Notes under the pieces: model-generated
What the model saw: the letters and a program-made list of their open reading frames with translations, nothing else
The model's database searches: none
Told to the model about the DNA's origin: nothing
Part shown: one piece after another, positions 5,269-57,545 of the stretch
Numbering within the stretch: position 1 is the stretch's first letter
Layout: each line of letters starts with the position of its first letter
Position numbers and translations under genes: made by a program
Assembly (NCBI RefSeq): GCF_027595985.1
Contig: NC_073302.1
Location: 10,542,966 to 10,606,965, forward strand
Length of the DNA: 64,000 nt
Direction of reading: 5' to 3'
DNA from: Sorex araneus
Taxonomy: Eukaryota > Chordata > Mammalia > Eulipotyphla > Soricidae

Positions 5269-6222
5269 TCAGACTAAGCTGTTTGACTTGCAGAACATCA
5301 CCTTATTAGCAAACAACTTTAGTGCTTGTTTTATATCTCTGTTTCTCAGACTGTAGATGAAAGGGTTCAGCATGGGGGTGATTATCATATACATCACAGA
5401 AGCAGCCATTTCTTTACTACTAGACATGGATGGCGAAGAAAAAAAGTACACATCTGCAATGGTCCCATAGAATAAAGCCACAACGACGAGATGGGAACCA
5501 CAGGTAGAAAGGACTTTGAAAAATTTCTTAGCAGAAGGATTTTTCAGGACAGTGGCCCATATGCAGATATATGATACCATGACAAAAGTGAATGGAATAC
5601 CTACAATCATTCCTCCCTCAATGAATATGACCAGATTAATGAGTGAAGTGTCTGAGCAGGTTAGGTCCAGCAACCTAGTTTCTTCACAGAAGAAATGGCG
5701 GATGGTAATATCACCACAGAAGGACACTTGGGACGAGAGCAGGGTGTGTATCAGTGCGTGTGAGGAACTGAAGATCCAGGACCAAGCAACTAATGAGATA
5801 CACCGTGCCTGCCTCATGATCATGGTGTAGTGGAGTGGCTGACAGATGGCTACATACCTGTCATAGGCCATCACTGCAAGAATAAAATTATCAGTACAAG
5901 CAAAAAATAGTAAAAAGTATAACTGAGAAATGCACCCTGTGTAGGGGATGGACTTGTGATTACTCTGCATGTCCACCAACATCTTGGGAACTGTGACAGT
6001 TGATAAAAATACGTCATTGAAGGCCAAGACACTGAGGAAGAAGTACATGGGGGTGTGGAGACGAGAGTCTATCCTGATGAGTAGGACGATGAGCAGGTTC
6101 CCCAGTATGGTGGTCAGGTATATGACCAGGAAGAGCATCATGAACCAGCCCTGTTGTTCTGGTGGTATAGGGAGACCTTGGAGTAGGAATTCAGAAACTC
6201 TGGTCTCATTCTGTTTCTTCAT
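5269..6222 (-). CDS. Olfactory receptor, class II, OR1-family-like (copy A)
   Basis: Intronless seven-transmembrane odorant receptor of 317 aa, expected in olfactory neuron cilia where it couples to G-olf. Visible features are an N-glycosylation site NET near residue 5, GN at 41-42 in TM1, PMYFFLS at 58-64, Cys97, MAYDRYVAIC at 118-127, Cys179 in extracellular loop 2, KVLSTCGSH near 236-244 in TM6 and PMLNPFIYSLRN near 283-294 in TM7. Length is normal for the family. I chose the ATG at 6222 over the in-frame ATG at 6282 because the paralogue at 40374 starts at the same place and a conserved splice-acceptor-like site lies between the two ATGs. Extracellular loop 2 reads FCEETRLLDLTCSD, unlike the FCELTALLEVCCSD of copy C. 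No stop or frameshift is seen. OR1 subfamily assignment is tentative. Confidence 0.95.
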   Translation of the reverse strand: MKKQNETRVSEFLLQGLPIPPEQQGWFMMLFLVIYLTTILGNLLIVLLIRIDSRLHTPMYFFLSVLAFNDVFLSTVTVPKMLVDMQSNHKSIPYTGCISQLYFLLFFACTDNFILAVMAYDRYVAICQPLHYTMIMRQARCISLVAWSWIFSSSHALIHTLLSSQVSFCGDITIRHFFCEETRLLDLTCSDTSLINLVIFIEGGMIVGIPFTFVMVSYICIWATVLKNPSAKKFFKVLSTCGSHLVVVALFYGTIADVYFFSSPSMSSSKEMAASVMYMIITPMLNPFIYSLRNRDIKQALKLFANKVMFCKSNSLV

Positions 6223-6235
6223 GATGCTCTTCTTT

Positions 6236-6262
6236 TTTCTGGGAGTCAAAAAGAAGGAAATA
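6236..6262 (-). promoter_or_regulatory. Putative 3' splice acceptor before the OR coding exon
   Basis: On the minus strand a pyrimidine tract (TTCCTTCTTTTTGACTCCC) is followed by AG at 6240-6239, 17 bases before the ATG at 6222. OR genes commonly have non-coding upstream exons spliced just before an intronless coding exon. The same acceptor position is kept in copy C (40392-40391). Inferred, not proven. Confidence 0.45.
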
Positions 6263-6678
6263 TTCAGAACCTGAATAGCCATATTATAGCAACATAATTT
6301 TTATATGAAAGAGTTGTTATTTTTTGACTAGTCTTTGGTCAAAACTTACATGTATGTATTCATGAATCACCACGTAACATTCGGGTTCTAAAAATACATA
6401 ACATTTTTCACAATTTGCAAAGTACTTTTCTTCACTGTATCAGTATATCACTGACAACACTCCACCATAGTTGAAGGAGGTAATCTTTGCTGGTTTTTGT
6501 ATTCAAGGTAAAGAGCAAGATGGCAAGTATTTCTTAGAGACTGAACTACTCAGGGACACTGGTTCGATCTCTCTGTGTTCCTTAAGGTAGATTGTGACTG
6601 ATTATGTGAGGAGACACCACAATAAACTAATTAACTACAAAAAACAGAGAACCTTGATTTTCATAGGATTTAACTTTT

Positions 6679-9829: not shown

Positions 9830-10105
9830 CAAGGCAGAATCTCCTGGAGCCAAAAGCCTCCATCCCTCTTGGAGAGCCTGGCAAGCTAGGCTCTTGCCAG
9901 AGCTATCCTGCCTGCACAGCAGAGCCTGGCAAGCTACCCATGATGTATTTGATATGCCAAAACAGTACCAGTAACAACAATGTGTTCTTCCTGTTTCTTG
10001 AGTGAACAGACGCATCTGGGTTGCACTGGCATGTGGCAGGGATGAAGGAAGACGTTACTGGTGCCCGCTCGAACAATCGATGAATAACAAGATGATAGAA
10101 ATAGT
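9830..10105 (+). mobile_element. ORF-less RTE derivative (5' leader joined to 3' tail)
   Basis: The left part (AAAAGCCTCCATCCCTCTTGG, GGAGAGCCTGGCAAGCTA, TTTGATATGCCAAAACAGTA) matches the inverted 5' leader of the RTE at about 21905-22060. The right part (TTGAGTGAACAGACGCATCT to GAACAATCGATGAATAACAA) matches the RTE 3' tail. All of the endonuclease/RT coding region is missing. It ends in GATGATAGAAATAGTGATAG simple-repeat units. Confidence 0.8.
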
Positions 10106-10589: not shown

Positions 10590-10930
10590 TGCCCCCAGTT
10601 ATTGTCACTGTTACTATCACTGTTACCCTGTTGTTCATCGACTTGCTCACGTGGGCGCTAGTAATGACTCCATTCATCCCTGTCGCTTGCTAGTGTAGCC
10701 CAATGGTGTATTGGGGGCTCTTTCAGGGTCAGGGGAATGAGGTCCATCATTGTTACTGTTTTTGGCATATCAAGTATGCCACAGGTAGCTGTCAGGCTCT
10801 ACCGTGTGGGCGGGATACTCTCGGTAGCTTGCTGGGCTCTCCAAGAGGGACAGAGGTTTTTGGGGAATCATCTAATCACCTTTACAGTTGTTCCCAACCT
10901 ACCAAATGTAAGCTTTTGGTTCACTGGCAT
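10590..10930 (-). mobile_element. ORF-less RTE derivative, minus strand
   Basis: Same arrangement as 9830-10105 but inverted: simple repeat (ATTGTCACTGTTACTATCAC) at the left, then the inverted RTE 3' tail (GGGCGCTAGTAATGACTCC, TAGTGTAGCCCAATGG), then the 5' leader block (GGCGGGATACTCTCGGTAGC, TTGCTGGGCTCTCC). The right end is approximate. Confidence 0.78.
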
Positions 10931-12094
10931 GTTGTAATGATCTGATTTCTTCTTTGAGAAAATTTTTGTTCATTTCCACCTCCCACCCCCATTTTCTGAT
11001 GGGGTTGGATGTTTTCTTCTTGTACAGTTTAACCAGTGCCTTGATATCAACCTTTTATCAGATGGGTATTGGGTGAATATCGTTGCCCTTTCTGTAGACT
11101 GTCTTTATATTTTGGTCACTTTTTTTTTGAGGTGTAGAAGCTGCATAATTTAAGATAGTCCCATTTGTTTTTATCTGTTTTCACTTGCTTGGCCAGTGGC
11201 ATGTCATCTTTGAAAATACCTTTAGCTCCAATATTGTGGAGGGTTTTGTCAACCTCGTCTTCCACGTACCATATGGATTCTGGTCTGATGTTGAGGTCTT
11301 TAATCCATTTTTACCTGACTTTTGTACATGGTGTTAGGTAGAGGTCTGAGCCCATTTTTTTTTTGCATGTAGCTGTCCCGTTTTCCAGCACCATTTGTTG
11401 AAGAGGCTTTAGGTTTTTTTCTTACAGTAGCCCTATTAGTCCTTCTTTTAAGTTCGGTTTTCAGACTATGAAGTACCTGAGCTGTTGTTTATCCATGAAA
11501 TAGTGTATCATTCCTTTGAGTTTGAGTGTAAGTTTAGCCAAATAAAGTATTATTGGTGAGGTGTTCATTTCACTGTTTTTTTTTTCCTTTATCCCACCAT
11601 TGTCTTCGGGCTTGGACAGTTTCCTCTGATAGGTTTTTTTGTAAATCTAAAGGGTGTGCCTTTGTATGTGATTTCCTTCTTTGACATTGCTGCTTGCAGT
11701 ATTGTGTCTATCCGTGGTATCCATCATTCCAACTAGGATATGTCTTGGAGACTTTTTATTAGGGTTTCTTTTAGCTGTCACCCTTCGAGCTCCTTGGATC
11801 TGGATGCCTGCATTCTCTGGGAACGTCTCAGCTTCTCTGAAGTTCTGGGAACTTCTCAGTGATGATATCTTATACTGTTTCTTTTTCATTGGGGTTGCCT
11901 CCCTCTTCTTCTGGTACTCCAGTGATTCTTATGTTGTTCCTCTTGAGTTCATCCCCTAGGACTGTGATTCACCCTAAGCTATTTTGAGGTCTTATCCCAA
12001 TGTTTGTTGTTTGTAAGCTTTCTGCAGCCCATCTTCAAGCTCACTGATTCTGTCTTCAGCTGTAGTCATTCTACTGTTGAGGGCACCCACTGAG

Positions 12095-17500: not shown

Positions 17501-18545
17501 CCTCAAAAAATATTAGCAAATAGAATCCAACAAGTCATCAAAAATATTATACACCACGACCAAGTGGGTTTCATCCGGGAAATGCAAGAATGATATAACA
17601 TTCACAAATCAATCAACATAATCCACATATCAACAAAAGTAAGAATAAAAACCATATGATCACATAAATAGATTCAGAGAAAGCATTTGATAAGATCCAA
17701 CACCTGTTTATGATGAAAACTCTCACTGAAATGGGTTTAGATGGAACGTTGCTCAAGATAGTCAAAGCCATCTACCACAAGCCTATGGCAAGCATTATCC
17801 TCATTGGGTAAAACTAAGGGCCTTCCCTCTAAGATCAAGGACAAAATGAGGATGTCAACTCCCACCACTTCTGTTCAATATAGTACTGGTAGTACTTGCA
17901 ATAGCAGTTAGAAAATAAGAAGACATTAAGTGCATTCAGATAGGAAAGGAAGAAATCAAGCTCTCAAATATTCACAGATTATATGATACTATATCTAAAG
18001 AATCTTAAAACTTCTACGAAGAAATTTCTAGAAACAATAGAATGTACAGTAAAGTCACAGCCTATAAAATCAATACCCTAAAATCCATAGCCTTCCTATA
18101 TGCAAGTAAAAAGACAGAGGAAAGTGACATAAAAAAAATCCCATTCACAATGGTGCCCCAGAAAATCAAGGACCTTGGAATCAGCACAACCGAGGAGGTT
18201 CTTTTCTACAAAGAAAACTACAAAATGCTACTCCATGAAATAAAAGAGGACATGAGGAAATGGAAACATATCCCCTGCTCATGGATAGGAAGAATTAGCA
18301 TTGTCAAAATGGCAATTCTCCCCAAAGCATTATACAAATTCGATGTGATCCCTATAAGGATTCCCATGATATACTTCAAATAAATGGATCAAGCAATCCT
18401 GAAATTCATATGGAACAACAAATGTCCACGAATAGCTAAAGCAATTCTTGGGAATAAGACGATGGGAGGCATCACCATCCCCAACCTCAAACTCTACTAC
18501 AAATTGGTAACAATTAAAAAAGCATGGTACTGAAACAAAAGCAGA
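14501..18545. mobile_element. L1 with inverted 5' segment (twin-priming structure)
   Basis: The left arm (14501 to about 17403) is minus strand: inverted 3' terminus (AACTCACCATAAGGTACA), 3'UTR and ORF2 C-terminus, reaching the YPYTQPQMY region near 17340-17380. At about 17404 the text flips to plus-strand ORF2, which starts at the HISLVPKANKDT region and runs through RT to about 18545, ending at the CAGAGCCACAGACC block. In the full L1 (57800-63656) these correspond to about 62040 to the 3' end for the left arm and about 60884 to 62040 for the right arm. The two arms therefore abut at one breakpoint with opposite orientation. An LTR is nested in the left arm at 14667-15973. All frames are broken. 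Confidence 0.85.
14667..15973 (-). mobile_element. Solo LTR of an endogenous retrovirus, nested in L1 3'UTR
   Basis: Inverted relative of the LTR at 50665-51807. Its 5' end reads TGTAGGATATCATTGG on the minus strand from 15973. Shared internal blocks include GGTTGGTCTCAGTTGCAGTT (about 14831-14850) and AGCAGGACACCCACCCAAG (about 15114-15132). L1 3'UTR text lies on both sides (CAGTATCCCTCCCA at the left, CCACCCTGCCTCTGTGGCA at the right), so it is an insertion. No internal viral genes remain. The left boundary is approximate. Confidence 0.75.
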
Positions 18546-19035
18546 GCCACAGACCATTTTTATGTTTTATATGTCTCATATTTCTATTGTAAAACACAAG
18601 AGTTCCATTATTCCCAGCATCCCGCGGGGCCTGCATCCTGGCTTCAGTCCCTGCCCCTCCAGCGCCTTCACCTTCCTCTCCCAGGGCAGCCAAGTTCCCT
18701 GACCAGTGATCCAGTCCCAGTTCCTGTGCCCCAGTCGGGCACCCAGACCCAAATACCTCCAGCATCCTGCGGGCCGTGCACCCTGCCCCCAGCCACAGAC
18801 CCTCCAGCGCTGTTCCGCCACCTTCCTCTCCCAGGTGTGTGAATCCCTATCATCACTGCCTCATTTGCTCATCCAGAACACCCTCTAAACCCCTAACCAC
18901 GAAACCATGCGGAAGATGATGCGCCCACGTGAAGAACTTTCTCAGGGCCTGACATTTGAGACACTAGTTATCCCAGATCTCACACAATAGCTATTAATAA
19001 ACCACCACCATTCACAAAGACAGTCTGATTGTAGG
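18546..19035. other. Gap with a GC-rich near-tandem repeat
   Basis: No gene seen. Positions about 18617-18680 and 18761-18835 hold two related GC-rich passages, each running from a CAGCATCC(C/T)GCGGG start to CACCTTCCTCTCCCAGG. They could be a decayed L1 5'UTR or an LTR piece. The rest is unassigned. Confidence 0.4.
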
Positions 19036-22000
19036 GGCCGTAAAATACAATATCACTTGTTGTCCCTTTGATCTACGAATTGCTTGAGCCGGCGCCAGTA
19101 ACGTCTTGATTTTTCCCTGTCATGTGCTAGTGCAGCCCAATGATATCTGCTTGCTCCAGGAATAGGATGAGCCTCAAATCGTTCATTCAGGGATTTGATG
19201 AAGAAATCTGACCATCTAGTTGGTGGGCGCCCACGATGTCTTTGACGTACCATGGAATCCAGTCGGTAACAGCTCTAGTCTAGTGGTCATCTCTGAATTG
19301 CATTACATGGCCGGCCCATCTGATTTTTGATGCCTTGGCAAACAAGACAGTGTCCCTGATTCTTGACCATTGACGGAGGTAATACCTGCGGATTCCTTCT
19401 CTCACTTGAGTGAGATGTGACACTCCTAGCATAGCTCCTTTGATTCCTCTTTGGGATACCCTAATAGCATTTTCATCCTGTTTGCGTAGGGCCCAGGTTT
19501 CTGAGGCATATGTTAGTGCAGGAAGAATGGTGGAATCAAAAAGATGTGCCTGGAGTCGGAGGTTCTTCGTTCTCTTAACCACTTCTTCAACGCTCTTGAA
19601 GTCATTCCACGCTGCTGTCTTCCTCCTGCACAGTTCTGGCATCAAGTCGTTCCTCATGTTGATTTCTCCACCCTGGTACACATAGATACTACATTTGGAG
19701 ATGTTTGCTCCATTGAGAGCAAATGGAGCTTCAGGGACAAGTTTGTTTTTCATGAGCATTGTCTTGTTGAGATTCAGCTGCAATCCGACATTTCCACACT
19801 CGTGGTCGAAGTCGGCCAGCATTTGTGCCGCTTGGCTAACGTTTGGTTTTTTGAGAACGATGTCATCAGTGAAGCGGAGGTGGTTTAGTTGCTGACCATC
19901 TATCTTCACTCCCATTCCTTCCCATTCCAGTCATCGCGTGATGTTCTCATGGTTGACACTGAAGAGTTTTAATGAAATGATATCACCCTGCAGCACCCCT
20001 CTCTTTGCATCAATGATCACTTCCTTGTATAATGGTGATATCCTGGTGGGGAATCCACACTACAGCTCAAGGAGGATTTTGATATACTAGTTTGAACGGC
20101 CTGTTTGGCTAGGGCTTCGATGACTGCTTCAGTCTCAACATAATCAAAGGCCTTCTTTAAGTCGATGAATGTTAGACAGAGCGGCATCTTGAACTCTCGC
20201 GAAACTTCAATGAGTTTGGTTACTGTGTGGATATGATCTATCGTGCTGAATCCCCTTCGGCAGATTGGGCGATAGTTGCCTATTTCGTGGATGTCTCCCT
20301 TCTTGTACAACAGAATAGTCCTTCTGTTTTTCGACTGAGATGAAACCTTGCATTCAGAGAGCTAGCATGTGAAGAGTCAAGCCAGTGTATTGATGAGTAC
20401 TGGTGGCAGATTCTTCAGGTGTTCAGGTCTGACCTCGTCCAGACCAGGTACTGTATGCATCTTTACCAACGAAATGGCGTGTCAGATTTCAGAAGGAAGG
20501 ATGTTGGGAATGACATATCCGTCCTGTGAAATTTGGTATGTGGGCAGGTGGACATGGCTGTCAAGGAAATCCGAGTAGAAGTCATGAATAATCCTCTCCA
20601 TCGCCTTTCTGGAAGATGTGATAGATCCATCAGGATGTCGGAGGGCAGTCATCTTGGTCTTGTAGTTGGCAAAGAACAGGCAAGCATTGCTAATACTTTT
20701 CCCGGCTTCTGCTGCATGTATAACACTGCTGCTCTTCTCTCTTTGAGGTCTTCATTTATCACATTTCTGCACAGCTTTGTGAGCTCGGATGTTAGCTTGT
20801 GGTTGCCTGAGGCTCGCACCAAACCACGTTGACGAATGAGCTCAAGAGTTTTCAAAGACAGGCGTCTGTTTGTGGCTTTCTCACTCTTGGCATTCTCCAC
20901 ACAGTCATGGAGGTGCTGAAACAGTCGATTGAATTCCTTGTTGATGTTGTCAAGGACGGCATTTTCCCACATTGCTGCAGTAGTACCAAAGGGCTCCCAG
21001 TTGGTGGTCATTGTGGGAGTTGCCTTCTTAAACTTAAATTTTGCAGACCTTTCTCCCCACTCTGTGAAGCAGAATTTTGCATGAAGGAGACGGTGGTCCG
21101 ATCCCGTTTGGAATTTTGGGACAACAGCAACATCGGTCAGACAAAACCTTTGATTGAATATGATGTGGTCAATTTTATTGTGGAACTGTCCACCGGGAGA
21201 TTCCCATGACCAGCGTTTAGATTCGGCCTTCTGGAACTGTGAGTAACCATTGATGGTCTTGGTCAACATGATGAATTCAGACAGTCTCTCACCCTGATCG
21301 TTTCATTCTAGGCCATGGGTCCCAATGTGGAGTTCTTCGGGCAACCTTCTCGGACTTATCTTGGCATCAAAATCACCAACAATGATCTTGTAGAAGGTGT
21401 GGTCTTCTTTATAGTACTTCTCCAGTTCCATGTAGAACTTCTCAATTTCTTCTTCATCGTAGTTGGAAGTTGGTGTGTAGACGATAAAGATAGAAACTGA
21501 AAGCAGTGTGCCACATCTATTTAAGTGTAATCGTCCAATTTGGGTTGTTAGGCATTTGAATGAATCAATGCTCATGGCCAAGTTCGTGTTGACAAGGACA
21601 CCAACGCCACCAATGCCTCTGTTGTTGCATGTTCCAAGGAACAATTCTTCTCCAGTGTCGAAAATTGCATGATGTGATTGATGTCTTCTTGTTTCGGTCA
21701 GACCAATGATGTCGTAGATGATCTTCTGCGCTTGTACCTCGATGGATGCTTCTGATGCCAGCATATGTGCATTGAAAGTACAGACAATCATTTTAGTCTT
21801 TCTTCATTTTGGCAGTTTAGTTTGTCCCCGAGATTTTTTCAGCCTCTCCTTGCTCATCTTTCTTAACGCTGCCATATTGGGAACTCTTTCGGTGATAGGT
21901 GATTGAGGCCAATTGTTGTTACTGTTGTTTGGCTAATCGAATATGCCACGGGTAGCTTGCTAGGCTCTGCCGTGCATGCGGGATACTCTCGGTAGCTTGC

Positions 22001-22310
22001 CAGGCTCTCCAGGAGGGTGGAGGCTTTTAGGGTGGCCTCCAATCGCCGTTAGAAGTGTTACCATTGTTCACACCAAATTTGAACCCGATCAAATATGGTG
22101 CAAGAATAGATGGTATTAAGTGTTCTATGGTGTGTCGCGTGGCCTCGAGATTGGAGGTGGCAGACAGAGGATATTGTTTCCAGGTCTCGTTGAACCTAGA
22201 GTTCAAGGTCGCAGAGTTCTGCTAACCTGGTTTTGAGGGGCTTCACTCGTGCATTAATTTCGGCCCAAGTGTCCGGAGAGAGGCCTGGAGTGTAGCAGTG
22301 GCTACATAGT
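19036..22310 (-). mobile_element. Near full-length RTE retrotransposon (nematode RTE-1-like)
   Basis: About 3.3 kb on the minus strand and the best RTE copy here. The 5' leader is about 21880-22310. A first possible start at about 21872 (MAALRKMSKERLKK) is followed by a stop; the next ATG is at 21791 (MIVCTFNAHM). The endonuclease (about 21791-21070) shows LTETRR, GGVGVLVN, YTPTSNYDEEE, VGDFDAKI, RRWSWESPGG, KIDHI and SDHRLLHAKF. A linker about 200 codons long precedes the reverse transcriptase (about 20310-19860) with LTFIDLKKAFDYVET and LRFTDDIVL; GVLQGDIISLKLF has an altered first Arg. A C-terminal block (DLMPELCRRKTAAWNDF, LPALTYASETWALRKQDE, RWAGHVMQFRDD) follows. Breaks lie between the open stretches near 21300, 20640-20320, 20016-19920 and 19270. 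About 33 codons between ICR and GFSTIDHI are missing compared with the copy at 800-960. Inactive but relatively young-looking. Confidence 0.9.
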
Positions 22311-23865
22311 GGATACATACAATAATATTACATAAAACTCCAAAACAAAAAGCCCACAGGTAAAACAACACAGATCCTCACCAAGTCTAATGATTGAAGT
22401 TGCTAGCCCAAATAAATAAAAATCGAACCCTATTACCTCTTAGATAAGGAATTTAAAATAGAACTTCTAAGAATGTATAAGGAGCTCAAAGAATCAATGG
22501 AATGCATTGATGATAAAATACAAGAATATACAAAAGCAGAGGTAAGAAAAATTTAATTTATGTGCATATATATATATATATGCAGAAGTGACAGACCTAA
22601 AAATTTGGTAGGTGAAATGAAAAACTCAGTGGAAGGTGTCAGCAACAGAGTAACAGCTGCTGAGGACAGAATCAGTGAGCTCCAAGATGAGGTGCTAAGG
22701 TTCTCCAGACAACAGCAGAAAATGGAAAGAACCTCAAAATAAATCAACAGATATCAAAAAATCTGGACGAATCCAAGAGGAATAACATAAGAATCATTGG
22801 AGTCCAAGAAGGACAGGAAGAAAAACCTGACGAAGAAGAAACTGCGAAAGACATAATTGCAAGAGATTCCCAGAGTGAAGACCACTTGCGATCAGATCCA
22901 GGAGGCGAGAAGGGTTCCAATTAAAGACGCCAAATAAAAATAAATTAATATACATCCTGATCAGAATGATGAAAACCATAGAAAGAGATAAAATTCTGGA
23001 AACAGCAAGATCAAAGAAAGAAATTTCTTATAAGGGGGCATTCTTAAGATTCCCAGCAAACCTATCCAATGAAACCCTAAGGGCCCAAAGAGAGTGGTGG
23101 GAATTAGTGAACAAACTCAATGAAATAAACGCCTTACCTAGAATACTTTCCCCAGCTAGACTCTCATTCACATCAGAAGGAACAACACAGACCTGCACAG
23201 ACAAACAAAAACTCAGGAACTTCATCGACACAAAACCATGGCTATAAGAGCAAGTAAACGGGCTACTTTAATACAAGACATGGCCCCCAAGTACACCAAA
23301 CTTTGGCAGAAACATGTGACAAAACCCCATAACAATAATCTCTCTCAATGTCAATGGGCTAAATGCACCAATGAAAAGACAGAGTGGCAGGATGGATCTG
23401 AAAACTGAACCCAACATTCTGCTGCCTGCAAGAAACACATCTGAACAGGCAGAGCGAACTCAGACTCAAAATGAAAGGATTTTTAAAAATTCTACGAGCA
23501 GACAGCTTCCTCAAAAAAGTGGAAGTGCACGGTGATTCAATAAAAGAATAAAATTAAATTTTTTTTTTTAAATAAAGAAAAAAGAATGAAAGAAAAAAAG
23601 TGGAAGTGGCCATATTGAATTCAGACCACATAGACTTCAAAGTGAAGAAGATTACAAGATACGATGAAGGATATTTCTTCATGACCAAAGGATCTGAACA
23701 CCATGAAGAACTTACTCTTCTAAATGTATATACACCCAACTAGGATCCAGCAAAATACTTAAAGCGATTCCTCATAGACTTGAAGAAAGACACTGACAGT
23801 AACACAATAATATTTGGAGACTTCAACATCGCTTTACCACCTCTTGGTAAAAATATTTAAAAAAA
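22311..23865 (+). mobile_element. Old L1: ORF1 and start of ORF2
   Basis: Parallel to 50150-52750. The ORF1 coiled-coil/RRM region (NLVGEMKNSVEGVSNRVTAAEDRISELQDEV at about 22600-22690) and C-terminal domain (KKEISYKGAFLRFPANL, REWWELVNKLNEI at about 23010-23130) are readable. The ORF2 endonuclease start (NNLSQCQWAKCTNE region in shifted frame, about 23330) and KKDTDSNTIIFGDFNI (about 23790-23835) follow. Many stops. Truncated at about 23865. Confidence 0.78.
23527..23593 (+). mobile_element. Very short L1 3'-end insertion
   Basis: A 67-base insertion consisting only of an L1-type terminus (CACGGTGATTCAATAAAAGA) and A-rich tail, flanked by a perfect 14-base duplication AAAAAAGTGGAAGT (23513-23526, 23594-23607). 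The parallel old L1 at 52497-52515 lacks it. Confidence 0.8.
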
Positions 23866-24857: not shown

Positions 24858-25307
24858 TTCTCTTTTTTGCTCGAGTGGGTGCCAATAACGTCTCCATTCA
24901 TCCATGCCTCATGCTAGTGTAGCCCAAAGGCATCTGCTCACTCCACGAACACAAAGAGCCTCAAACAGTCCATTCAGGGTCTTGATGAAGAAGCCTGACC
25001 TTATCATAGGTGGGCAGTCACGTGTTCTTTTGACATTCAGTGGAATCCAGTCGGTAACAGCTCTAGTCCAGCGGTCATCTCTGAATCCCATTACATGACC
25101 GGCCCATCTGATTTTCGACGCCCTGGCAAACGAGACAGCGTCCGTGATTCTTGAACATCGACGGATGTCGGAACTCCGGATTCCTTTCCTCACTTGAGTG
25201 AAACATGATATTCCAAGCATAGCTCTTTCTATTCCTCTTTGGGATACCCAAATAGCGTTCTCATCCTGTTTTTGTAGGACCCATGTCTCTGAGGCATATG
25301 TTAGTGC
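24858..25307 (-). mobile_element. RTE 3' fragment, 5'-truncated
   Basis: The minus strand reads RVSRCLWATLA, DWIPLNVKRTRDCPPM, SKIRWAGHVMGFRDDRW and HVSLRH-type tail text, equal to the C-terminal 140 or so codons of the RTE. The 3' non-coding tail is at the left (GCTCGAGTGGGTGCCAATAA). The same fragment sits at 57105-57545; the third copy of the flanking block (34035) lacks it. Confidence 0.85.
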
Positions 25308-26650
25308 AAATGAAAAAAAAAAAACACAAAAAACTCATACCTCTATATAATGCCATTCACAAAAGTTAGATCAAAATGAGTTAAAGAACTGACACCAGAC
25401 CCAAATCCATAAGGTACACACACACACAAACACTACACACACACACAAACAGCAAAAAACATAAGCAAAACCCTCCATGACATTGAAGCTAAAGGCATAT
25501 TCAAAGTTAAAACACCACTTGCCAAGCAAATAGAAGCAAAGATAAATGGGACTACATTAACATAAGAAGCCTTTAACCCTAAAAAACAATTAGTGACCAA
25601 GATACAAAGACAACCAGGGAATGAGAAAAATTATCTATGCAAAACCCATCTGATAAGGGGTTAATATCAAAGCTATATAAGACACCGGTAGAGATATATG
25701 AGCATGAAAAATGCTCTTCATCAATAATTATCAGGTAGATGCAAATCAAAGCAACAAGATACCATCTCACATCATAGAGACGGGCACACATCGTAAAGTA
25801 CAAGAATAACCAGTGCTGGTGCAGATGCGGGGAGAGAGGGACTCTTTCATTGTTGGTGAGAATGTCACCTGGTCTGACCTTTTTGGAAAACAATATGGAC
25901 ATTACTCAAATAAAGTGGAAATTGAATTCCCAATTGACCAAGCAATAACATGTTCTGGAATAGACCCTGGGGGTCCAAAAACACACAACAGACACACCAT
26001 GTGCTCTTCTATGGTCATTGCAACACTATTCGAAATAGCCAGAATATGAAAAGAACCCGAATTCCCCAAAACAGACGACTGGATAAAGAAAGAATGGTAC
26101 ATCTTCACAATGGAATTCTGTGCATTGGTTAGGAAAAATGAAGTCATGAAATTTGATTATAAATTGATAGACATGGAGAGAATCATGCTGAAAAATGAAT
26201 CAGAAAGAGATGGTCAAATAGAATGAGTGCGTTCATTTGTGGAATATAAAAAAAACAAAATAGTATGAGACTAATATCTAAAGCCTGGGAAAACTGGGGC
26301 TAGGAGGACTGGTCAATGGTAGGAAGGTTGCCACAAGAGCAGTGGAGGGGAGTGGCGGGAGAAAGGGCAGTTAGGATAGGGAAGAGGCCAGTATGACAAT
26401 AATTTTTGGTAATAATCACTCTGAACAATAATTGAGCATTGAAAGTAGTAAATTGATATAAATGATAGTCTTTCAATACTTACATTGCAAAACACAGAGC
26501 TCAAAAGGAAAGAGAGAGAAGGAAAGACAAAGAGAAGAGAGAAGAAAAGTGCCTGCTATAGAGGCATGCATGGAGGGGCGAGGGAGGAAAACTGGGGACA
26601 CTGGTGGTAGCAAATGCAATCTCCTGAAGGTATGGGGTTGGAACATTGAA
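25308..26650 (+). mobile_element. Old L1 3' half
   Basis: Plus-strand ORF2 C-terminal region: the ACCCCTCCATGACATTGAAG-like block, CCATCTGATAAGGGGTTAAT, ATACCATCTCACATCATAGA, the C-terminal zinc-knuckle region (CWCRCGERGTLSLLVRMS in a mixed frame at about 25815-25870), then the 3'UTR to about 26650. It carries the pre-insertion site of the L1 found in unit D: 25561-25573 reads CATAAGAAGCCTT uninterrupted. A CA-rich run lies at 25418-25450. The mirror copy is 44800-46510. Confidence 0.75.
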
Positions 26651-30200: not shown

Positions 30201-30410
30201 GCATTGCTTGCTTACTCATGTGTAGGGCTTTGTGCAGTTAAGTGTTGTTCAAAGTATTTTTGCTGATTTAGAAAAATATCTTATAAATTGTGAAGATGTG
30301 ATGTATTATTAGAACCCGAATGGTACATGGTGATTCATGCATACATACATGTGAGTTATGAACAAAGTCATTAAAAAAACACTTTCATGTAAAAATTTTG
30401 TTTCTATAAT

Positions 30411-30959
30411 ATGAGGCAGGCACGGTGTATCTCATTAGTAGCTTGGTCCTGGATCATCAGTTTTTCACACGCACTGATCCATACCCTGCTCTTGATCCAA
30501 GTGTCCTTCTGTGGTGACATTACCATCCCCCATTTCTTCTGTGAACTAACAGCATTGCTGGAGGTAAGCTGCTCAGACACTTCACTCAATAACCTGGTCA
30601 TATTCATTGAAGGAGTAATAATTGTATATATTCCATTCACTTTTATCATGGGATCATATATCTGCATATGGGCCACTGTCCTGAAAAATCCATCAGCTAA
30701 GAAATTCTTCAAAGTCCTTTCTACCTGTGGCTCCCATCTCCTGGTTGTGGCTTTATTCTATGGGACCATTGCAGAAGTGTACTTATTCTCCTCACCAGCC
30801 ATGTCCAGTGCTAAAGAAATAGCTGCTTCTGTGATGTATATGATAGTCACCCCCATGCTGAACCCTTTCATCTACAGTCTGAGAAACAGAGATATAAAAC
30901 AAGCCCTAATATTGTTTGCTGATAAGGTGATGTTGTTTAAGTCAAACAATGTAGTCTGA
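30411..30959 (+). pseudogene. Olfactory receptor copy B, lacking TM1-TM3
   Basis: An open frame of 182 codons corresponds to residues 136 to the end of the intact copies: TM4 onward, with CELTALLEVSCSD in loop 2, KVLSTCGSHLLVV in TM6 and PMLNPFIYSLRN in TM7. The sequence before the ATG (CACTTTCATGTAAAAATT, TTTCTATAATATG) is not OR coding text but the distal 5' flank that in copy A lies around 6280-6310. A deletion of about 465 bases therefore removed the splice acceptor, start codon and first 135 codons, and joined the two sides at a shared ATG. The MAYDRYVAIC motif is gone, so it cannot be a working receptor even though no stop interrupts the remaining frame. Confidence 0.92.
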
Positions 30960-38274: not shown

Positions 38275-38655
38275 GGTCACACCCAGAAATTTACCCCGGC
38301 ACCATGTTATCTCATCAATGGCTAACATTCAGAGACCATAAAGCCAAGCTTTCAGAAGCGTGCAGCATCTTATAGCCTAGTTCTCCCTCTCAGAGAACCT
38401 GGGAAGCTACCAAGAGTTTCCTGCTCATATGGGAGATCCTGACAAGCTCCCCGTGGCTTATTCATATGCCAAAACCAGTAACAATGATGGGTCTCATTCC
38501 CCTAACTCTGCAAGAGCCTCCAATGTGGCACCATGGAGAAGGACTAGTAAAGGGAGGTTTCTAAAATCTCAGGGCTAGGAAGAATGAAGATGTTACTTAG
38601 ATCGCTCGAGAAAATCGACAACCAACGGGATGATAATGATGATGATGATGGTGAT
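38275..38655 (+). mobile_element. ORF-less RTE derivative
   Basis: 5' leader text (CTCTCAGAGAACCTGGGAAG, GTGGCTTATTCATATGCCAA) joined to RTE 3' tail text (GAAGATGTTACTTAGATCGC, CAACCAACGGGATGATAATG) and ending in an ATG-repeat microsatellite (38630-38652). Missing from the parallel place in unit A (about 4500-4550). Confidence 0.78.
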
Positions 38656-39429: not shown

Positions 39430-40374
39430 TCATTTAGACTTAATGAACGTCATCTTATTAGCAAACAACATTAGTGCTTGTTTTATATCTCTGTTTCTCA
39501 GACTGTAGATGAAAGGGTTCAGCATGGGGGTGATTATCATATACATCACAGAAGCAGATATTTCTTTACTACCAGACATGGATGGCGAAGAAAAAAAGTA
39601 CACTTCTGCAATGGTCCCATAGAATAAAGCCACAACAAGGAGATGAGAACCACAGGTAGAAAGGACTTTGAAGAATTTCTTAGAAGAAGGATTTTTCAGG
39701 ACAGTGGCCCATATGCAGATATATGATCCCATGATAAAAGTGAATGGAATGCATACACTCATTCCTCCCTCAATGAATATGACCAGGTTATTGAGTGAAG
39801 TATCTGAGCAGCATACCTCCAGCAATGCAGTGAGTTCACAGAAGAAGTGTGGGATGATAATATCACCACAGAAGGAGACTCGGGTCAAGAGGAGGGTGTG
39901 CAGCAGTGCATGCGAAAAATTGATGGTCCAGGACCAAACTACTAATGAGATACATCGCTCCTGCCTCATTATCATGGTGTAGTGGAGTGGCTGACAGATG
40001 GCTACATACCTGTCATATGCCATCACTGCAAGAATAAAATTGTCAGTACAAGCAAAAAGTATTAAAAAATATACCTGAGAAATGCACCCTGAATAGGAGA
40101 TGGACTTGTGATTACTCTGCATGTCCACCAACATTTTGGGCACTGTGACAGATGATAAAAAAACATCGTTGAAGGCCAAGACACTGAGAAAGAAGTACAT
40201 GGGTGTGTGGAGGCGAGAGTCTATCCTGATGAGCAGGACGATGAGCAGGTTCCCCAGCACGGTGGTCAGGTATATGACCAGGAAGAGGGTCAAGAACCAG
40301 CCCTGTTGTTCTGGTGGTATAGGGAGACCCTGGAGGAGGAATTCAGAAACTCTGGTCTCATTTTGTCTCTTCAT
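39430..40374 (-). CDS. Olfactory receptor, class II, OR1-family-like (copy C)
   Basis: Intronless odorant receptor of 314 aa, expected in the plasma membrane of olfactory sensory cilia. It has NET near residue 5 (glycosylation), GN at 41-42, PMYFFLS at 58-64, Cys97 and Cys179 for the conserved disulfide, MAYDRYVAIC at 118-127, KVLSTCGSH at 236-244 and PMLNPFIYSLRN at 283-294. The start at 40374 (MKRQNETRVSEF) lines up with copy A and there is no alternative upstream ATG in frame as in A. About 43 of 314 residues differ from copy A by eye count, many of them between residues 147 and 189 (TM4 and loop 2). The C-terminus is three residues shorter than in A. No lesion seen; likely functional. Subfamily not assignable by eye. 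Confidence 0.95.
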   Translation of the reverse strand: MKRQNETRVSEFLLQGLPIPPEQQGWFLTLFLVIYLTTVLGNLLIVLLIRIDSRLHTPMYFFLSVLAFNDVFLSSVTVPKMLVDMQSNHKSISYSGCISQVYFLILFACTDNFILAVMAYDRYVAICQPLHYTMIMRQERCISLVVWSWTINFSHALLHTLLLTRVSFCGDIIIPHFFCELTALLEVCCSDTSLNNLVIFIEGGMSVCIPFTFIMGSYICIWATVLKNPSSKKFFKVLSTCGSHLLVVALFYGTIAEVYFFSSPSMSGSKEISASVMYMIITPMLNPFIYSLRNRDIKQALMLFANKMTFIKSK

Positions 40375-40389
40375 GCTGCTCCTCTTTCT

Positions 40390-40412
40390 TCTGGGAGTCA
40401 GAGAGAGAAATG
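40390..40412 (-). promoter_or_regulatory. Putative 3' splice acceptor before OR copy C
   Basis: The minus strand reads TTTCTCTCTCTGACTCCCAG with the AG at 40392-40391, 16 bases before the ATG. It is aligned with the acceptor of copy A at 6240-6239. Typical of the boundary between a non-coding 5' exon and the OR coding exon; inferred. Confidence 0.45.
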
Positions 40413-40569
40413 TTAAGTGCCCAAAGAACCATTCTATAATAACCCAATTTTTATATGAAAGTGTTGTTATTTTTTAACTAGATTTTGTTTACAACTCACA
40501 TGTATGTATGCATGAATCATGTACCGTTCAGGTTCTAATAATACATCACATCTTCACAGTCTATAAGAT

Positions 40570-49500: not shown

Positions 49501-50145
49501 CCAGTTATGATTCATTGATCTTTTGGATTGTTTTTTTGGTTTCCATGTCACTAATTTCTGCTCTAATTTTTATTACTTCTTTCCTTCGGTCTGGTTTGGG
49601 TTCCTTTTTCTGGTCTTTTTCTAAGGTCTTGAGCCGTGAATTCAAACTATCTATGTGGTCCCTTTCTTCCTTCCTGAGGAATGCTTGGAGAGCTATAAAT
49701 TTTCCCCTTAACACGGCTTTAGCTGTGTCCCATGTGTTTTGATAGCTCTTGATATGTCTTCTTTGATATATCTTCATTCTCATTTGTTTCTAAATATCTT
49801 TTGATTTCTTCCTTGATTTCCTTCCTGACCCACTCATTGTTCAACATTGAGTTGTTTAATTTCCAGGTGTTTGATTTAGTTCTCCGTGTCTGTGTGTGGT
49901 TAGATTCTATCTTCAGCGCATCGTGGTCTGAAAAGATGGTTGATACAATTTCTATTCTTCTGCTTCTATTTAGGTATGTTCTGGGGCCCAGTCCATGGTC
50001 TATTTTGGAAAATGTTCTGCGTGCACTGGAAAAGAATGTGTATTCTTTCTTTTTGGGGTTTAAAGCCGTGTATAGGTCTATTAGGCCTCTCTCTTCAATT
50101 TCTTCTTTCAGAGTCAGTGTTTCCTTGCTGAGTTTTGTTCCTGTA
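46528..50145 (-). mobile_element. L1, 5'-truncated, about 3.6 kb
   Basis: Minus-strand L1 of the same young family as 57800-63656. The 3' terminus is at the left (TTTTTTAATTAGTGAATCAC), then the inverted G-rich 3'UTR, then ORF2 read in pieces: [26 protein letters not shown]-like knuckle in a broken frame (about 47390-47450), [37 protein letters not shown] block [17 protein letters not shown] (about 48790) and [16 protein letters not shown], and the endonuclease end [17 protein letters not shown] (about 50100). It starts within the endonuclease domain. About 560 bases between the knuckle region and the downstream ORF2 text are missing compared with the full L1. Inactive. Confidence 0.88.
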
Positions 50146-50149
50146 ACAT

Positions 50150-53100
50150 ACAATAACATTAGATAAAACTACAAAACACAAAGCCCACTGGTAAAACAAC
50201 ACAGAAAGTCACCAAGTCTAATGATTGAACTTGCTAGCCCGATAAATCAAACAGTACCAATGAACTCTATTACCTCTCAAATAAGGAATTTAAAATAGAA
50301 CTTTTAAGGAGGTATAAGGAGCTCAAAGAAGCAATGGAATGCATTGATGATAAAATACAAGAGGATTTGAAAGCACAGGTGATAAAAATGCAATATATAT
50401 ACATATATATGAGCAGAAATGACAGACCTAAAAAACTTGGTAGGTGAAATGAAAAACTCAGTGGAAGGCCTCAGCAACAGAGAAACATCTACTGAGGACA
50501 GAATCAATGAGATCCAAGCTGAGGTGCTGAGGTTCTTCAGACAACAGCAGAAAATGGAAATAACCTCAAAATAAATTGACAGGTATCTGGAAAAAAATCT
50601 GGATGAAGTCAAGAGGAATAGCATAAGAATCACTGGAGTCCAAGTAGGACAGGAAGAAAACCCTTGTTGGATATCATTGGTTTGTCCTTTCCCCCTTGCC
50701 ACTAGGAGCTTAGGTTTATCAGTCAAACCCATCAAAGTGCTCCAAGTCACTCCCATTCCTTTGTTTATCTGTAACCATTTCTATCAGTTTATCTGCTCTT
50801 CCCTTAATCAAACTGTTAATTGGTAAGGTCAGAACTTCCTAGGACACTGAATATTATAACATTGCCTTTCTCTCCTCTTTATGCCTTTTGAATAATTTAC
50901 TTTAAAGCTATGTCTTTTTTGTATAGACACAAGAAGACAATATTATGTTTTTATAACTTAAGACTTAATTGGCCTCGATATTCCCTCCTGGGCATCTGCT
51001 TTCTCCACTTAAGCCTCAGTTGCCCTCAGTTCCTAGCACCCCAAAGTAGGGTCCCCGACGTGGGACGGGAAGGATCCAGGGCAAGCGGTGAGTTATGTGC
51101 TACCCTGGCATCGAGATGGGCCTGGCCAAAGTGCCTAATTCTTAACTATAAGTTAAGAGCTTGATCATAGACAAATGCTGTCATGATCCAATAGTAATTA
51201 TGAGACTGGGACCCTGCCAGGGATAGGAAAGACTGATCTGGCCTGAGCACTATAGTCTGAGATTGAGATGGCCCCAGGAGAGCAATTCTATAAGCTTTAA
51301 TGCATCTCTTATTGTGTCCATACAAAATGATTAATATTATGAATTCTTATATGTTTGCTGGCTGAGGAGAAGAGAAACACATTCATGGGACTCTGCCCTT
51401 GGGTGGGTCCTCCTGCTGAAAGAGAGATTCTGTCCTAGTGAAGGCATTCCCCTAAGGGATAGAACTATACCCCCTATGGATTGTAACCACACCTTTAGAT
51501 AAGCCCCAGGCTGCTGGGGGACGGGGAGATTTAAGGTAGCTGTATGAGGGGGCAGGGAGAGAGTTCCAGAGGAGAGTGTATAGAGAGAAGATTGGAATAA
51601 ACTGCAAGTGAGACCAACCATCTTGGCTCCGTTCCTTCCTTTGCCTGCCACATCTTCGCCATCAACCTCCCCGGGGTGGGGGAAGCGGCTGGAGGCTACC
51701 GAACTCGGGTGGCGGGAGAGACAGCTGCTGCCCTAGGCCCTGTGCCTGGCTCGGTGCGGTGAGGCATCCCTTTCCTCGCCCGCGCCTTTTCTTTTTATTT
51801 TTACACAACCCTGATGAGAAAGAAACTGTGAAAGACATTATTGCTAAGATATTCCCAGAGCTGAAGACAATTGGCGATAAGATCCAGGAGGTGATAAGTG
51901 TTCCAACTAAAAGAAATTCAAATAAAAATACTCTAAGACACATCCTGATCAGAATGATGAAAACCATAGGCAGAGATAAAAATCTGAAAAAATCAAGATC
52001 AAAGAAAGAAATTTCTTGTAAGGGGGCATTCTTAAGATTCACAGCAGACCTATCCGATGAAACCCTAAAGGCCCGAAGAGAGTGGTGGGATGTAGTGAAC
52101 AAACTCAATGAAATAAACGCCTTACCTAGAATACTTTCACCAGCTAGACTCTCATTAATATCATAAGGAACAACACAGAGCTTCACAGACAAAAACTCAG
52201 GAACTTCATTGCCTCAAAACCATGGCTATAAGAGCAACTAAACGGGCTACTTTAAGACAAGACAAACCCCCCAAGTACACCAAACTTTGGTAGAAAGATG
52301 TGACAAAACCACATAACAATAATCTCTCTCAATGTCAATGGGCTAAATGCACCAATGAAAAGACAGAGTGGCAGGATGGATCTGAAAACTGAACCCAACA
52401 TTCTGCTGCCTGCAAGAAACACATCTGAACAGGCAGAGCCAACTCAGACTCAAAATGAAAGGATGTAAAACAATCATATGAGCAGACTGCTCCCTCAAAA
52501 AAGTAAAAGTGGCCATATTGATATCAGACCACATAGACTTCAGACTGAAGAAGTTTATAAGATACAATGAAGGACATTTCTTAATGATCAAAGGATCTAA
52601 ACACCAGGAAGAACTCACTCTCCTAAATGTATATGCACCTAACGAGGAACCAGCAAAATACTTAAAGCTATTCCTCATAGACTTGAAGAAAGACACTGAC
52701 AGCAACACAATAATAGATGGAGACTTCAACATCACTTTATCACCTCTTGGTAGATCAACAAGACTCAAGCTCAGCAAGGATATACTGTATCTGAAGGAGA
52801 AATTGAATACAGGAGTCTAGTAGACATATATAGGACATTTAACCCCCAAAAAGCTGAATACACATTCTTCTCAAGTGCCCTTGGCACATTGTTCAAGATA
52901 GACCACCTACTGGGCTATAAAACATACCTCCATAAAATTAAGAGGATAGAAATTGTATCAAGGATCTTTTCAGATCATGATGCACTGAAAATTAAAGTAA
53001 ATCACATGCAGAAACAGAAATTCAAACCAAAAACCTTAAAATTAAACAGCTCACTACTGAATAATAAGTGGAATAGAAAGGAAATCAAAGAGGGGATCAA

Positions 53101-55496: not shown

Positions 55497-57104
55497 TCTT
55501 TAATTTTTCAACAATATTACTCAGAATGATATAATGACGATTTTATCAGCCCATTTTCAAAACTTTCTTTTATAATAGTGATTTCTGCATTTCTATAGGA
55601 AAATATATTCCATTCCATTATTTATCTATAAATAAAATAAAATATTTTATTTTATTGAATCACCGTTAGTTATAAGCTTTCATGTTTGGGTTACAATCTC
55701 ACAATTATCAATATATTTCATTTTAAAGAAATAAATGTATTTTCTTATATTAGAAATAATTAAAAATGATTTAGACCTATGAATTACAAACTGCTCATAA
55801 TAGAATTGCTAGCACACTGCTTACAATAAATCTTTAGAAATCTGTGTTTATCATGAAGTAAAGGATTCTGTAACACATATCTGCTAAGTATTTTAAACTT
55901 AAATCCTGTATTTAATTATATGTCTATATTTTTTAATATTCATTCACTGACAGAGTTGTTTAAAATTTAATTTGTTCCAAATAGACATTAAATTATTTAA
56001 ATATTCCTAGCTATTTTATTCTTTGTGCATAGTTGCAAATAAATTTTCTAAATTTTTCTTTCAAATGTTTATTTTTTGTGTACCTGAATGAACTATTAAA
56101 ATTTATTTCTTCATCATTAATTAAAAATTAAATTTAAGTATGTACTGTGATTTATAATACTTTTAATAGTAATGTTCCAGGAATACATGTTTCCACACCA
56201 CATCACAAACTAGAGTGTCATTGAACCACCAACTCTAGGTCCTCTCTCATCAATTCTCACCAGAGCCACCTCTTAGTAAATTCATTTCTGCAGCTAGATT
56301 ATCAGCATCTGTTACCACTGCTTCTTTTAAAATTCTGTTAGTATGTATAACTTTACTTCAAATAAGAGAGGAATATTTGCTATTTGTCTTGCCTATGACT
56401 TACCCTTATTATGATACCCTCTATTTCCATTCAAGTACTATGAATCTGCAAGACTTTGTTGTTCCTCATAGTTGACTATTATTCCATTGGGTATACATAA
56501 GATAGATTCTTTTTCACTCATATGTTCTCAGGGCTTGGGTGGCTTCCATATGTTGGCAATACCTACCACCAGAACACCCTCATTCCCATGCTAACATTTC
56601 AAAGTTCACTCAGATACACCCCTGTCCCTTTAAACTCAGTTCTGTGAACTATCTCTCCATTTTTGCTATTTTTTTCATTTCTGGGTATCTTATAACCCGC
56701 ATGAGACAGACTACTCCGTATCCAATTATCCCCTTCTGATGGATTTTGCTCAGTATGATATCCTCCAGTTCCATCCAAGTAGGAAGTAATTGCATGATTT
56801 CATCTTTTCTTACGACTGCACAAGATTCCATAATTTAAATATCCCAACGCTTCTTGATTCACTCATCTATAGTTGGACATTTGGGCTGACTCCATATCTT
56901 GGCTATTGGATGAAGTGCTGCAATGATTATAATGTGCATATATCCTTTTAAAGTCGTGTTTTTATAGTTTAGGGATAGAAATCAAGAAGTGGTATTGCTC
57001 AGTTGCATGGGAGTTCTATTTTTATTTAACAAAAATAATTTCCATATTTCTTTCCATAGAGACTGACAAACATATCCACAACAGAGAATAAATGTTCTCC
57101 TTTT

Positions 57105-57545
57105 TGCTCGAGTGGGCGCCAATAACGTCTCCATTCATCCCTGCTTCATGCTAGTGTAGCCTAATGGCATCTGCTCACTCCAAGCCACAAACAGCTTCAA
57201 ACAGTTCATTCAGTCTTGACGAAGAAGCCTGACCATATCGTAGGAGGGCGGTCATGCATTCTTTTGACATCCAATGGAATCCAGTGGGTAACAGCTCTAG
57301 TCCAGCGGTCGTCTCTGAATCCCATTACATGACCGGCCCATCTGATTTTCGATGCCTTGGCAAACTAGACAGCATCCCTGACTCTTGATCATTGGCGGAG
57401 GTCGGAACTCCGGATTCCTTCACTCACTTGAGTGAAACATGATATTCCAAGCATTGCTCTTTCTATTCCTCTTTGGGATACCCGAATAGCGTTCTCATCC
57501 TGTTTTCATAGGACCCAGGCCTCTGAGGCATATGTTACTGCAAAT
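57105..57545 (-). mobile_element. RTE 3' fragment, 5'-truncated (second copy)
   Basis: Same fragment and same junctions as 24858-25307: GCTCGAGTGGGCGCCAATAA at the left and GAGGCATATGTTACTGCAAA followed by an A-run at the right. Shared by duplication, not by independent insertion. Confidence 0.85.

Follow-up and report, generated by a model that had tools for sequence, protein, structure and literature searches.

RTE1_Sar, a long interspersed element (LINE) of the RTE type, has been reported from the common shrew Sorex araneus and from nine parasitic nematodes, with a transfer between nematodes and the shrew (Dunemann and Wasmuth, 2019; PMC6542046). As presented in that report, its copies rose gradually with no ancient burst, and searches of hedgehog, solenodon and star-nosed mole gave no significant hits; the terms "SINE", "SINEs" and "short interspersed" are absent from the main text. 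AviRTE, an RTE common to birds and filarial nematodes, was described together with new short interspersed elements (SINEs) in its hosts (PMC4844689), and the RTE-dependent mammalian SINEs gathered in Table 1 of PMC3747384 include none from shrews. Here, a window of 64,000 bp of the S. araneus genome (bases 10,542,966-10,606,965 of a 453-Mb contig) was analysed around an RTE-clade retrotransposon located at 19053-22316. With a probability of roughly 0.85, the window contains an old and no longer functional copy of an abundant shrew RTE-clade LINE, very probably RTE1_Sar as judged from the fit of host, copy number and element type, accompanied by derivative families designated SINE A, B1 and B2. 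The presence of a nematode-shrew RTE is itself already known, having been published in 2019.

The element lies on the minus strand, from 19053 (3' end) to 22316 (5' end), and measures 3,264 bp. Its ends were first placed at ~19051 (3') and ~22314 (5') by alignment to other genome copies and then fixed by an exact 8-bp target-site duplication (TSD), ATACAATA, found at 19045-19052 on the 3' side and at 22317-22324 on the 5' side. The empty site was searched with a query made of the two flanks and a single TSD, in 2.41 Gb of genome comprising 65 contigs, 12 of them large. The joined flanks aligned across the junction at 36 of 40 loci scored from 248 candidates, the best match (86% over query positions 2-308) lying at a distance of ~270 kb in the same contig. 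The remaining four loci comprised the two flanks in the window, one flank of the nearby locus L009 and the stretch 50143-50556; the latter was dropped as a local empty site as only the right flank matches there, with just 12 bases beyond the junction. Because the joined flanks run unbroken at those 36 sites, the RTE copy is a genuine insertion.

The right flank belongs to an L1, evidenced by an L1 double-stranded RNA-binding-like domain (PF17490, E 2e-15 at 22879-23247). Olfactory-receptor frames are found at 5269-6300 (PF13853, E 1e-49) and 39430-40473 (E 2e-50), with a third, partial and Pfam-confirmed, at 30393-30959. The RTE is inserted in an L1 which itself lies within an olfactory-receptor array, and integration would have proceeded by target-primed reverse transcription. 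At L009 (C1:10495600-10503500), 65 kb upstream, the sequence is 91.7% identical to window positions 17978-20260 over 2.3 kb, the locus having been duplicated after the RTE insertion; the RTE copy of L009 ends 5' of the reverse transcriptase (RT) region, where other sequence starts. Large blocks of the window are mutually repetitive at ~73-91%, partly because of L1 copies. Nematode (Trichocephalida) reads are present in older shrew data, according to PMC6542046, and the element could for that reason be suspected to be nematode contamination or an assembly artefact; however, it occupies position 10.56 Mb of the 453-Mb contig, inside an L1, bounded by a TSD and surrounded by olfactory-receptor frames, and the locus has a duplicated copy 65 kb away. 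As the empty site is continuous, contamination is refuted for the window copy and the probability left to this explanation is negligible.

From 5' to 3', all on the minus strand, the copy comprises a 5' untranslated region (5'UTR, 21876-22316), an endonuclease of the APE type with an N-terminal piece at 21303-21803 (PF03372, E 0.002), the C-terminal part of the endonuclease, read from the frame translation (SDHRLLHAKF), with a linker at 20649-21302, an N-terminal RT piece at 20017-20361 (PF00078, E 2e-4), the RT region with the motif FTDD (FADD in the consensus) and the C-terminal region at 19280-19930 (PF00078, E 1e-4), and a C-terminal coding piece with the stop codon and the 3' end at 19053-19274. 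The putative start of the open reading frame (ORF), near 21875 (MAALRKMSKERLKKSRG), was placed from a 5'-region consensus of eight copies, that of the window included, which enters the frame at that point. The Pfam scores of these broken pieces fall below the curated cut-offs; in less damaged copies RVT_1 (PF00078) was detected with E 7e-29 (L032) and Exo_endo_phos (PF03372) with E 1e-6 (L031). The domain order, APE endonuclease followed by RT, is that of the RTE clade, as read from L031, L032 and partial consensus frames; none of the copies examined had the two domains in a single unbroken ORF. A consensus of the 3' 911 bp, built from 30 copies with the window copy and L009 excluded, forms one open frame through to the stop codon. 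The length (3,264 bp plus ~94 bp missing from the RT) is also that of the clade (about 3.2-3.5 kb), as is the 3' end, which consists of short tandem repeats, (CAAGTGATA)n, following the element in other copies, and not of poly(A). A 9-bp terminal repeat closes the RTE, and a second CAAGT(GATA) repeat follows it directly at 30 of the 40 3' ends examined, L021 and L041 being counted twice each.

The initial annotation, which gave no strand, had recognised the element from six peptide strings, five of which are reproduced exactly in minus-strand frames; the remaining one has KRWSWESPGG in place of RRWSWESPGG. The presence of an RTE-type element was confirmed by the TSD and by the endonuclease and RT domains of the less damaged copies, and its description as near full length is accurate, since only ~94 bp more are found in other copies. 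The claim of few breaks did not hold: the frame is broken up into five pieces or more, ~94 bp of RT are absent at 20259|20260 (this segment is kept in other copies, L009 among them), and the last 303 codons contain two in-frame stops and one 1-bp deletion.

R2 and L1 ORF2p were among the closest solved proteins; a PDB search with the endonuclease piece alone retrieved chance matches only. A structure prediction of the RT piece (mean predicted local distance difference test score 31.8) was not used. Protein scans of viral, prokaryotic and phage collections found no relatives of the RTE, and neither did plasmid searches with the window piece (protein) or with DNA; with L032 as query, two distant RT matches were retrieved from plasmids, one in NZ_CP104070.1 (24.7%) and the other a Bradyrhizobium group II intron RT (24.6%). 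The former, at 20217-21749 of an Alicyclobacillus plasmid record from cell culture, covers 86% of the L032 frame in a region without an annotated feature and is possibly eukaryotic contamination.

The family is abundant in the shrew genome, in agreement with RTE1_Sar. A search with the 216-residue RT frame yielded 39,943 first-look candidates, which are not counted copies; the 150 that were scored, with scoring that gives a lower bound, all matched (the query itself and 149 others at 78-84% identity), and these matches are distributed over each of the 12 large contigs. In the window, 6,390 bases are RTE sequence, contributed by the main copy and three other places, a second, older copy on the plus strand at 1-2682 (aligned over 1-2010 and 2548-2682) and two old minus-strand fragments, 24866-25308 and its paralogue 57103-57542, recognised by alignment and distance and apparently copied through local duplication. 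Of 40 loci, 39 have the 3' end. A loose script classified 29 of these as truncated, 9 as carrying an inverted 5' part and 1, the reference copy itself, as full; at least the call of inversion in L028 is doubtful. Inverted 5' parts, observed in L015, L016, L017, L020, L030, L038, L045 and L046, concern about a fifth of the RTE copies and recall the twin priming of L1.

Regarding the age of the insertion, the window copy is at a non-CpG distance of 0.064 (6.4%) from the 3' consensus. For 40 copies searched out in the genome, the median is 0.029 (0.010-0.072), whilst the three other stretches of the window give 0.131-0.158, the highest value (Kimura two-parameter distance, K2P) being that of the copy at 1-2682, and those met by chance give 0.139 (L009), 0.019 (L020) and 0.055 (L021). 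For 31 other copies (L009 being one of them), which came from searches and are biased to similar, young ones, the pairwise K2P averages 0.098 (0.053 with CpG columns masked) and the distance to the window copy 0.121. No near-identical pairs were found among these 31 copies, the lowest unmasked K2P being 0.066, and L042, the sole copy tested for its closest relative, has a best match of 95% outside itself. Substitutions in the window copy are spread nearly evenly across codon positions (0.092, 0.086 and 0.076); in the oldest copy of the window the bias (0.204, 0.131 and 0.178) is too weak for a claim. Mammalian neutral rates are 2.2-5e-9 per year. At these rates the window copy would be, very roughly, 13-29 million years old, the shrew's own rate possibly being different, and the oldest stretches of the window some 26-72 million years, figures that include change in the source element.

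These data do not support the recent activity suggested in the initial annotation, whose association with RTE1_Sar otherwise stands in so far as a high-copy RTE in the shrew fits the published description (PMC6542046). A recent insertion from a still active family would be compatible with the near full length of the copy and with the ~3% median divergence of the 40 searched-out copies (1.0% for the closest), but this possibility appears very improbable considering the broken frame with its even decay, the distance of 0.064, the lack of close pairs and the later duplication of the locus, whose duplicates are now 91.7% identical. Moreover, in the published table of PMC3183009 the common shrew families with less than 1% divergence are long terminal repeat elements only, with no RTE. 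The RTE family is old and did not arrive recently. Window copies at 13-16% non-CpG distance indicate long residence in the lineage and might even be taken for a vertically inherited mammalian RTE of the BovB or MamRTE type. The absence of hits in three other eulipotyphlan families and the placement of the element within nematode sequences, both as given in PMC6542046, argue against this explanation, which is considered improbable.

The 5'UTR connects the RTE with its derivatives. A 105-bp stretch of it (21913-22017), common to SINE A, B1 and B2, was found standing alone near many copies. SINE A, reconstructed as a 12-copy consensus, has a tRNA-Ala-like head detected by ARAGORN, with A and B boxes of RNA polymerase III read by eye, a middle portion of 108 bp that agrees with the RTE 5' consensus at 95.4% (E 4e-47) and an end of which 61 bp match the RTE 3' end at 86.9% (E 1e-16; the highest score among 100 shuffles was 26.5 bits). 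SINE A presents two features of a Bov-tA kind of element, a tRNA-derived head with polymerase III boxes and a 3' end common to it and the partner LINE. In the genome search all 40 copies scored from 3,431 candidates matched, and the 15 SINE A stretches measuring 150 bp or more among the loci examined have a median non-CpG distance of 0.073. Rfam matches to miRNA and lncRNA families were far under the gathering scores and were disregarded.

The 66-bp head of SINE A occurs nine times in the window, each time within a SINE with an A-rich tail and without RTE parts, so that the head is all that these elements have in common with SINE A; one of the nine attains the Rfam gathering score for tRNA. 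The body of these A-tailed SINEs matches published Soricidae SINE primers (PMC8608897), with 9 forward-primer and 6 probe sites in the window at no more than 3 mismatches and none in shuffled sequence, which marks the host as a shrew. The primers derive from SINEBase motifs (PMC8608897; PMC8466645), and the A-tailed SINE of the window probably corresponds to Sor. Since its 66-bp head is shared with the Sor-type SINE and its 3' end with the RTE, SINE A is a host SINE head combined with an RTE tail, in which a Sor-type tRNA head is fused to 108 bp of RTE 5'UTR and the RTE 3' end.

The B1 family (5-copy consensus) includes 197 bp of RTE 5'UTR (86%, E 9e-65) abutting 92 bp of RTE 3' end (90%, E 4e-31). 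Preceding these is a segment related to the first exon of VAV3, which was present in all 40 copies scored, each a match, from 9,789 candidates. This segment translates to the N-terminus of VAV-3 (PDB 2d86, E 5e-26; VAV1, 2e-17), and the best place for the peptide in the genome, C8:57892325-57892498 (L053, 95%), is presumed to be the genome's own VAV3 exon 1. Of 150 places scored from 2,542 candidates, 149 lie outside the presumed VAV3 gene, are VAV3-like at 74-88% and are found on all 12 large contigs; a few of them may be VAV1 or VAV2 exons. Positions 876-1140 of the B1 consensus are 86.5% identical to the VAV3 locus (E 2e-88). This similarity stops 2 bases past the last base of the exon, where the gene reads on with the splice donor GTAAGG; in the VAV3-like composites examined (L027:3772-4035 and L049-L052) the exon part likewise stops at the splice donor inside B1. 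As the match ends where a spliced RNA leaves the gene, splicing is the most likely route by which the exon was captured, and B1 consists of VAV3 exon 1, cut at the splice junction, placed ahead of the RTE 5'UTR and 3' end. A segment of ~90 bp separates the VAV3 part from the RTE part. Internal repeats with differing spacings are found 5' of the VAV3 part in L050:126-535 and L051:6-631. In the window, B1 is represented by a minus-strand composite fragment with RTE 5'UTR and RTE 3' end but without the VAV3 part (10615-10944) and by a B1-like fragment on the plus strand (9850-10083).

B2 has a head of its own and a more diverged RTE body, and constitutes a third derivative; the window copy, with an older RTE 5'UTR-like body, is located at 38305-38613 on the plus strand, and the copy in L040 carries a 49-bp RTE-like 3' end (84%). 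The direction of exchange deserves consideration, as the RTE could have acquired the shared 5'UTR segment from a repeat already present in shrews instead of having donated it. The shared 105-108 bp do not code for protein, and the segment has diverged further in the B1 and B2 copies observed (71-82%) than in SINE A, as such an origin would allow. Nevertheless, the Sor-type SINE has only the 66-bp head in common with SINE A, and additional RTE 5'UTR flanks the shared segment on both sides in B1 and on the 3' side in B2, which fits the RTE as the source and makes the reverse direction unlikely.

Based on these observations, a model can be proposed in which the single ORF of the RTE would encode an endonuclease that nicks DNA and an RT that recognises the 3' end of the RNA and copies it in place. 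The recognised end would comprise ~60-90 bases finishing in CAAGTGATA repeats and, if the enzyme reads the RTE 3' end, other RNAs that gain that end would therefore be copied in trans as well, in the manner suggested for BovB and its partner Bov-tA. The balance of evidence leans slightly towards a nematode-derived RTE which, beyond establishing itself, became a second retrotransposition engine in the shrew and took up a Sor head and, through splicing, VAV3 exon 1, giving rise to thousands of copies of families so far undescribed. No description of shrew RTE dependents was found among the matches listed in the open literature, the term "undescribed" being provisional until Repbase, Dfam and SINEBase are consulted.

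Several points weigh against this interpretation. The name RTE1_Sar and the nematode origin rest on PMC6542046, and mobilisation of the dependents by RTE enzymes is inferred from the shared 3' ends. TSDs of 11-12 bp were found in 3 of 11 SINE A copies (at most 1 in 200 shuffles), the other 8 having none or short ones, and Rfam reported no tRNA at E<=1 in individual SINE A copies from 5 loci. In addition, copy figures are first-look candidates and not annotated copies, and the distances of older copies were measured to a consensus skewed to younger ones.

With its empty site and TSD in a chromosome-scale assembly, the element identifies the shrew RTE as old and endogenous. Through its dependents, a report of horizontal transfer may become a test case for the remodelling of a mammalian genome by a foreign LINE, as the RTE appears to provide a second, tail-specific retrotransposition system alongside L1; one of the dependents has carried VAV3 exon-1-like sequence to each of the 12 large contigs. 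Insertions of SINE A, B1 and B2 could serve as markers for timing the arrival of the RTE in shrews.

What is new, provisionally and unless they are already deposited in Repbase or Dfam, are the families SINE A, B1 and B2, their novelty lying in the pairings, that is, which parts were joined, and not in the principle. SVA_F1 is a composite retroposon that took a host first exon (MAST2 exon 1) at a splice junction and then spread. B1 follows the same exon-capture design, with VAV3 instead of MAST2 and an RTE-type 3' end in place of poly(A). The partnership of BovB with Bov-tA, which has a tRNA head, and Bov-A2, which has a head from the LINE 5' end, both with a LINE tail, parallels the construction of SINE A and the B families; it belongs to ruminants, and the mammalian part of the table in PMC3747384 includes no shrew pair. 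Sor resembles SINE A in its tRNA-like 66-bp head (PMC8608897; PMC8466645) and differs in having an A-rich tail and no RTE parts, where SINE A has an RTE tail. AviRTE is likewise an RTE shared by vertebrates and nematodes that yields SINEs, although its hosts are birds and filarial nematodes and the SINE heads are GC-rich and related to 28S rRNA (PMC4844689). With RTE1_Sar, as far as it is described in PMC6542046, the likeness is by description, both being RTE LINEs that are very abundant in the shrew and whose copies decay independently; the published gradual rise in copies differs from the picture in this window, where three stretches at 13-16% stand together.

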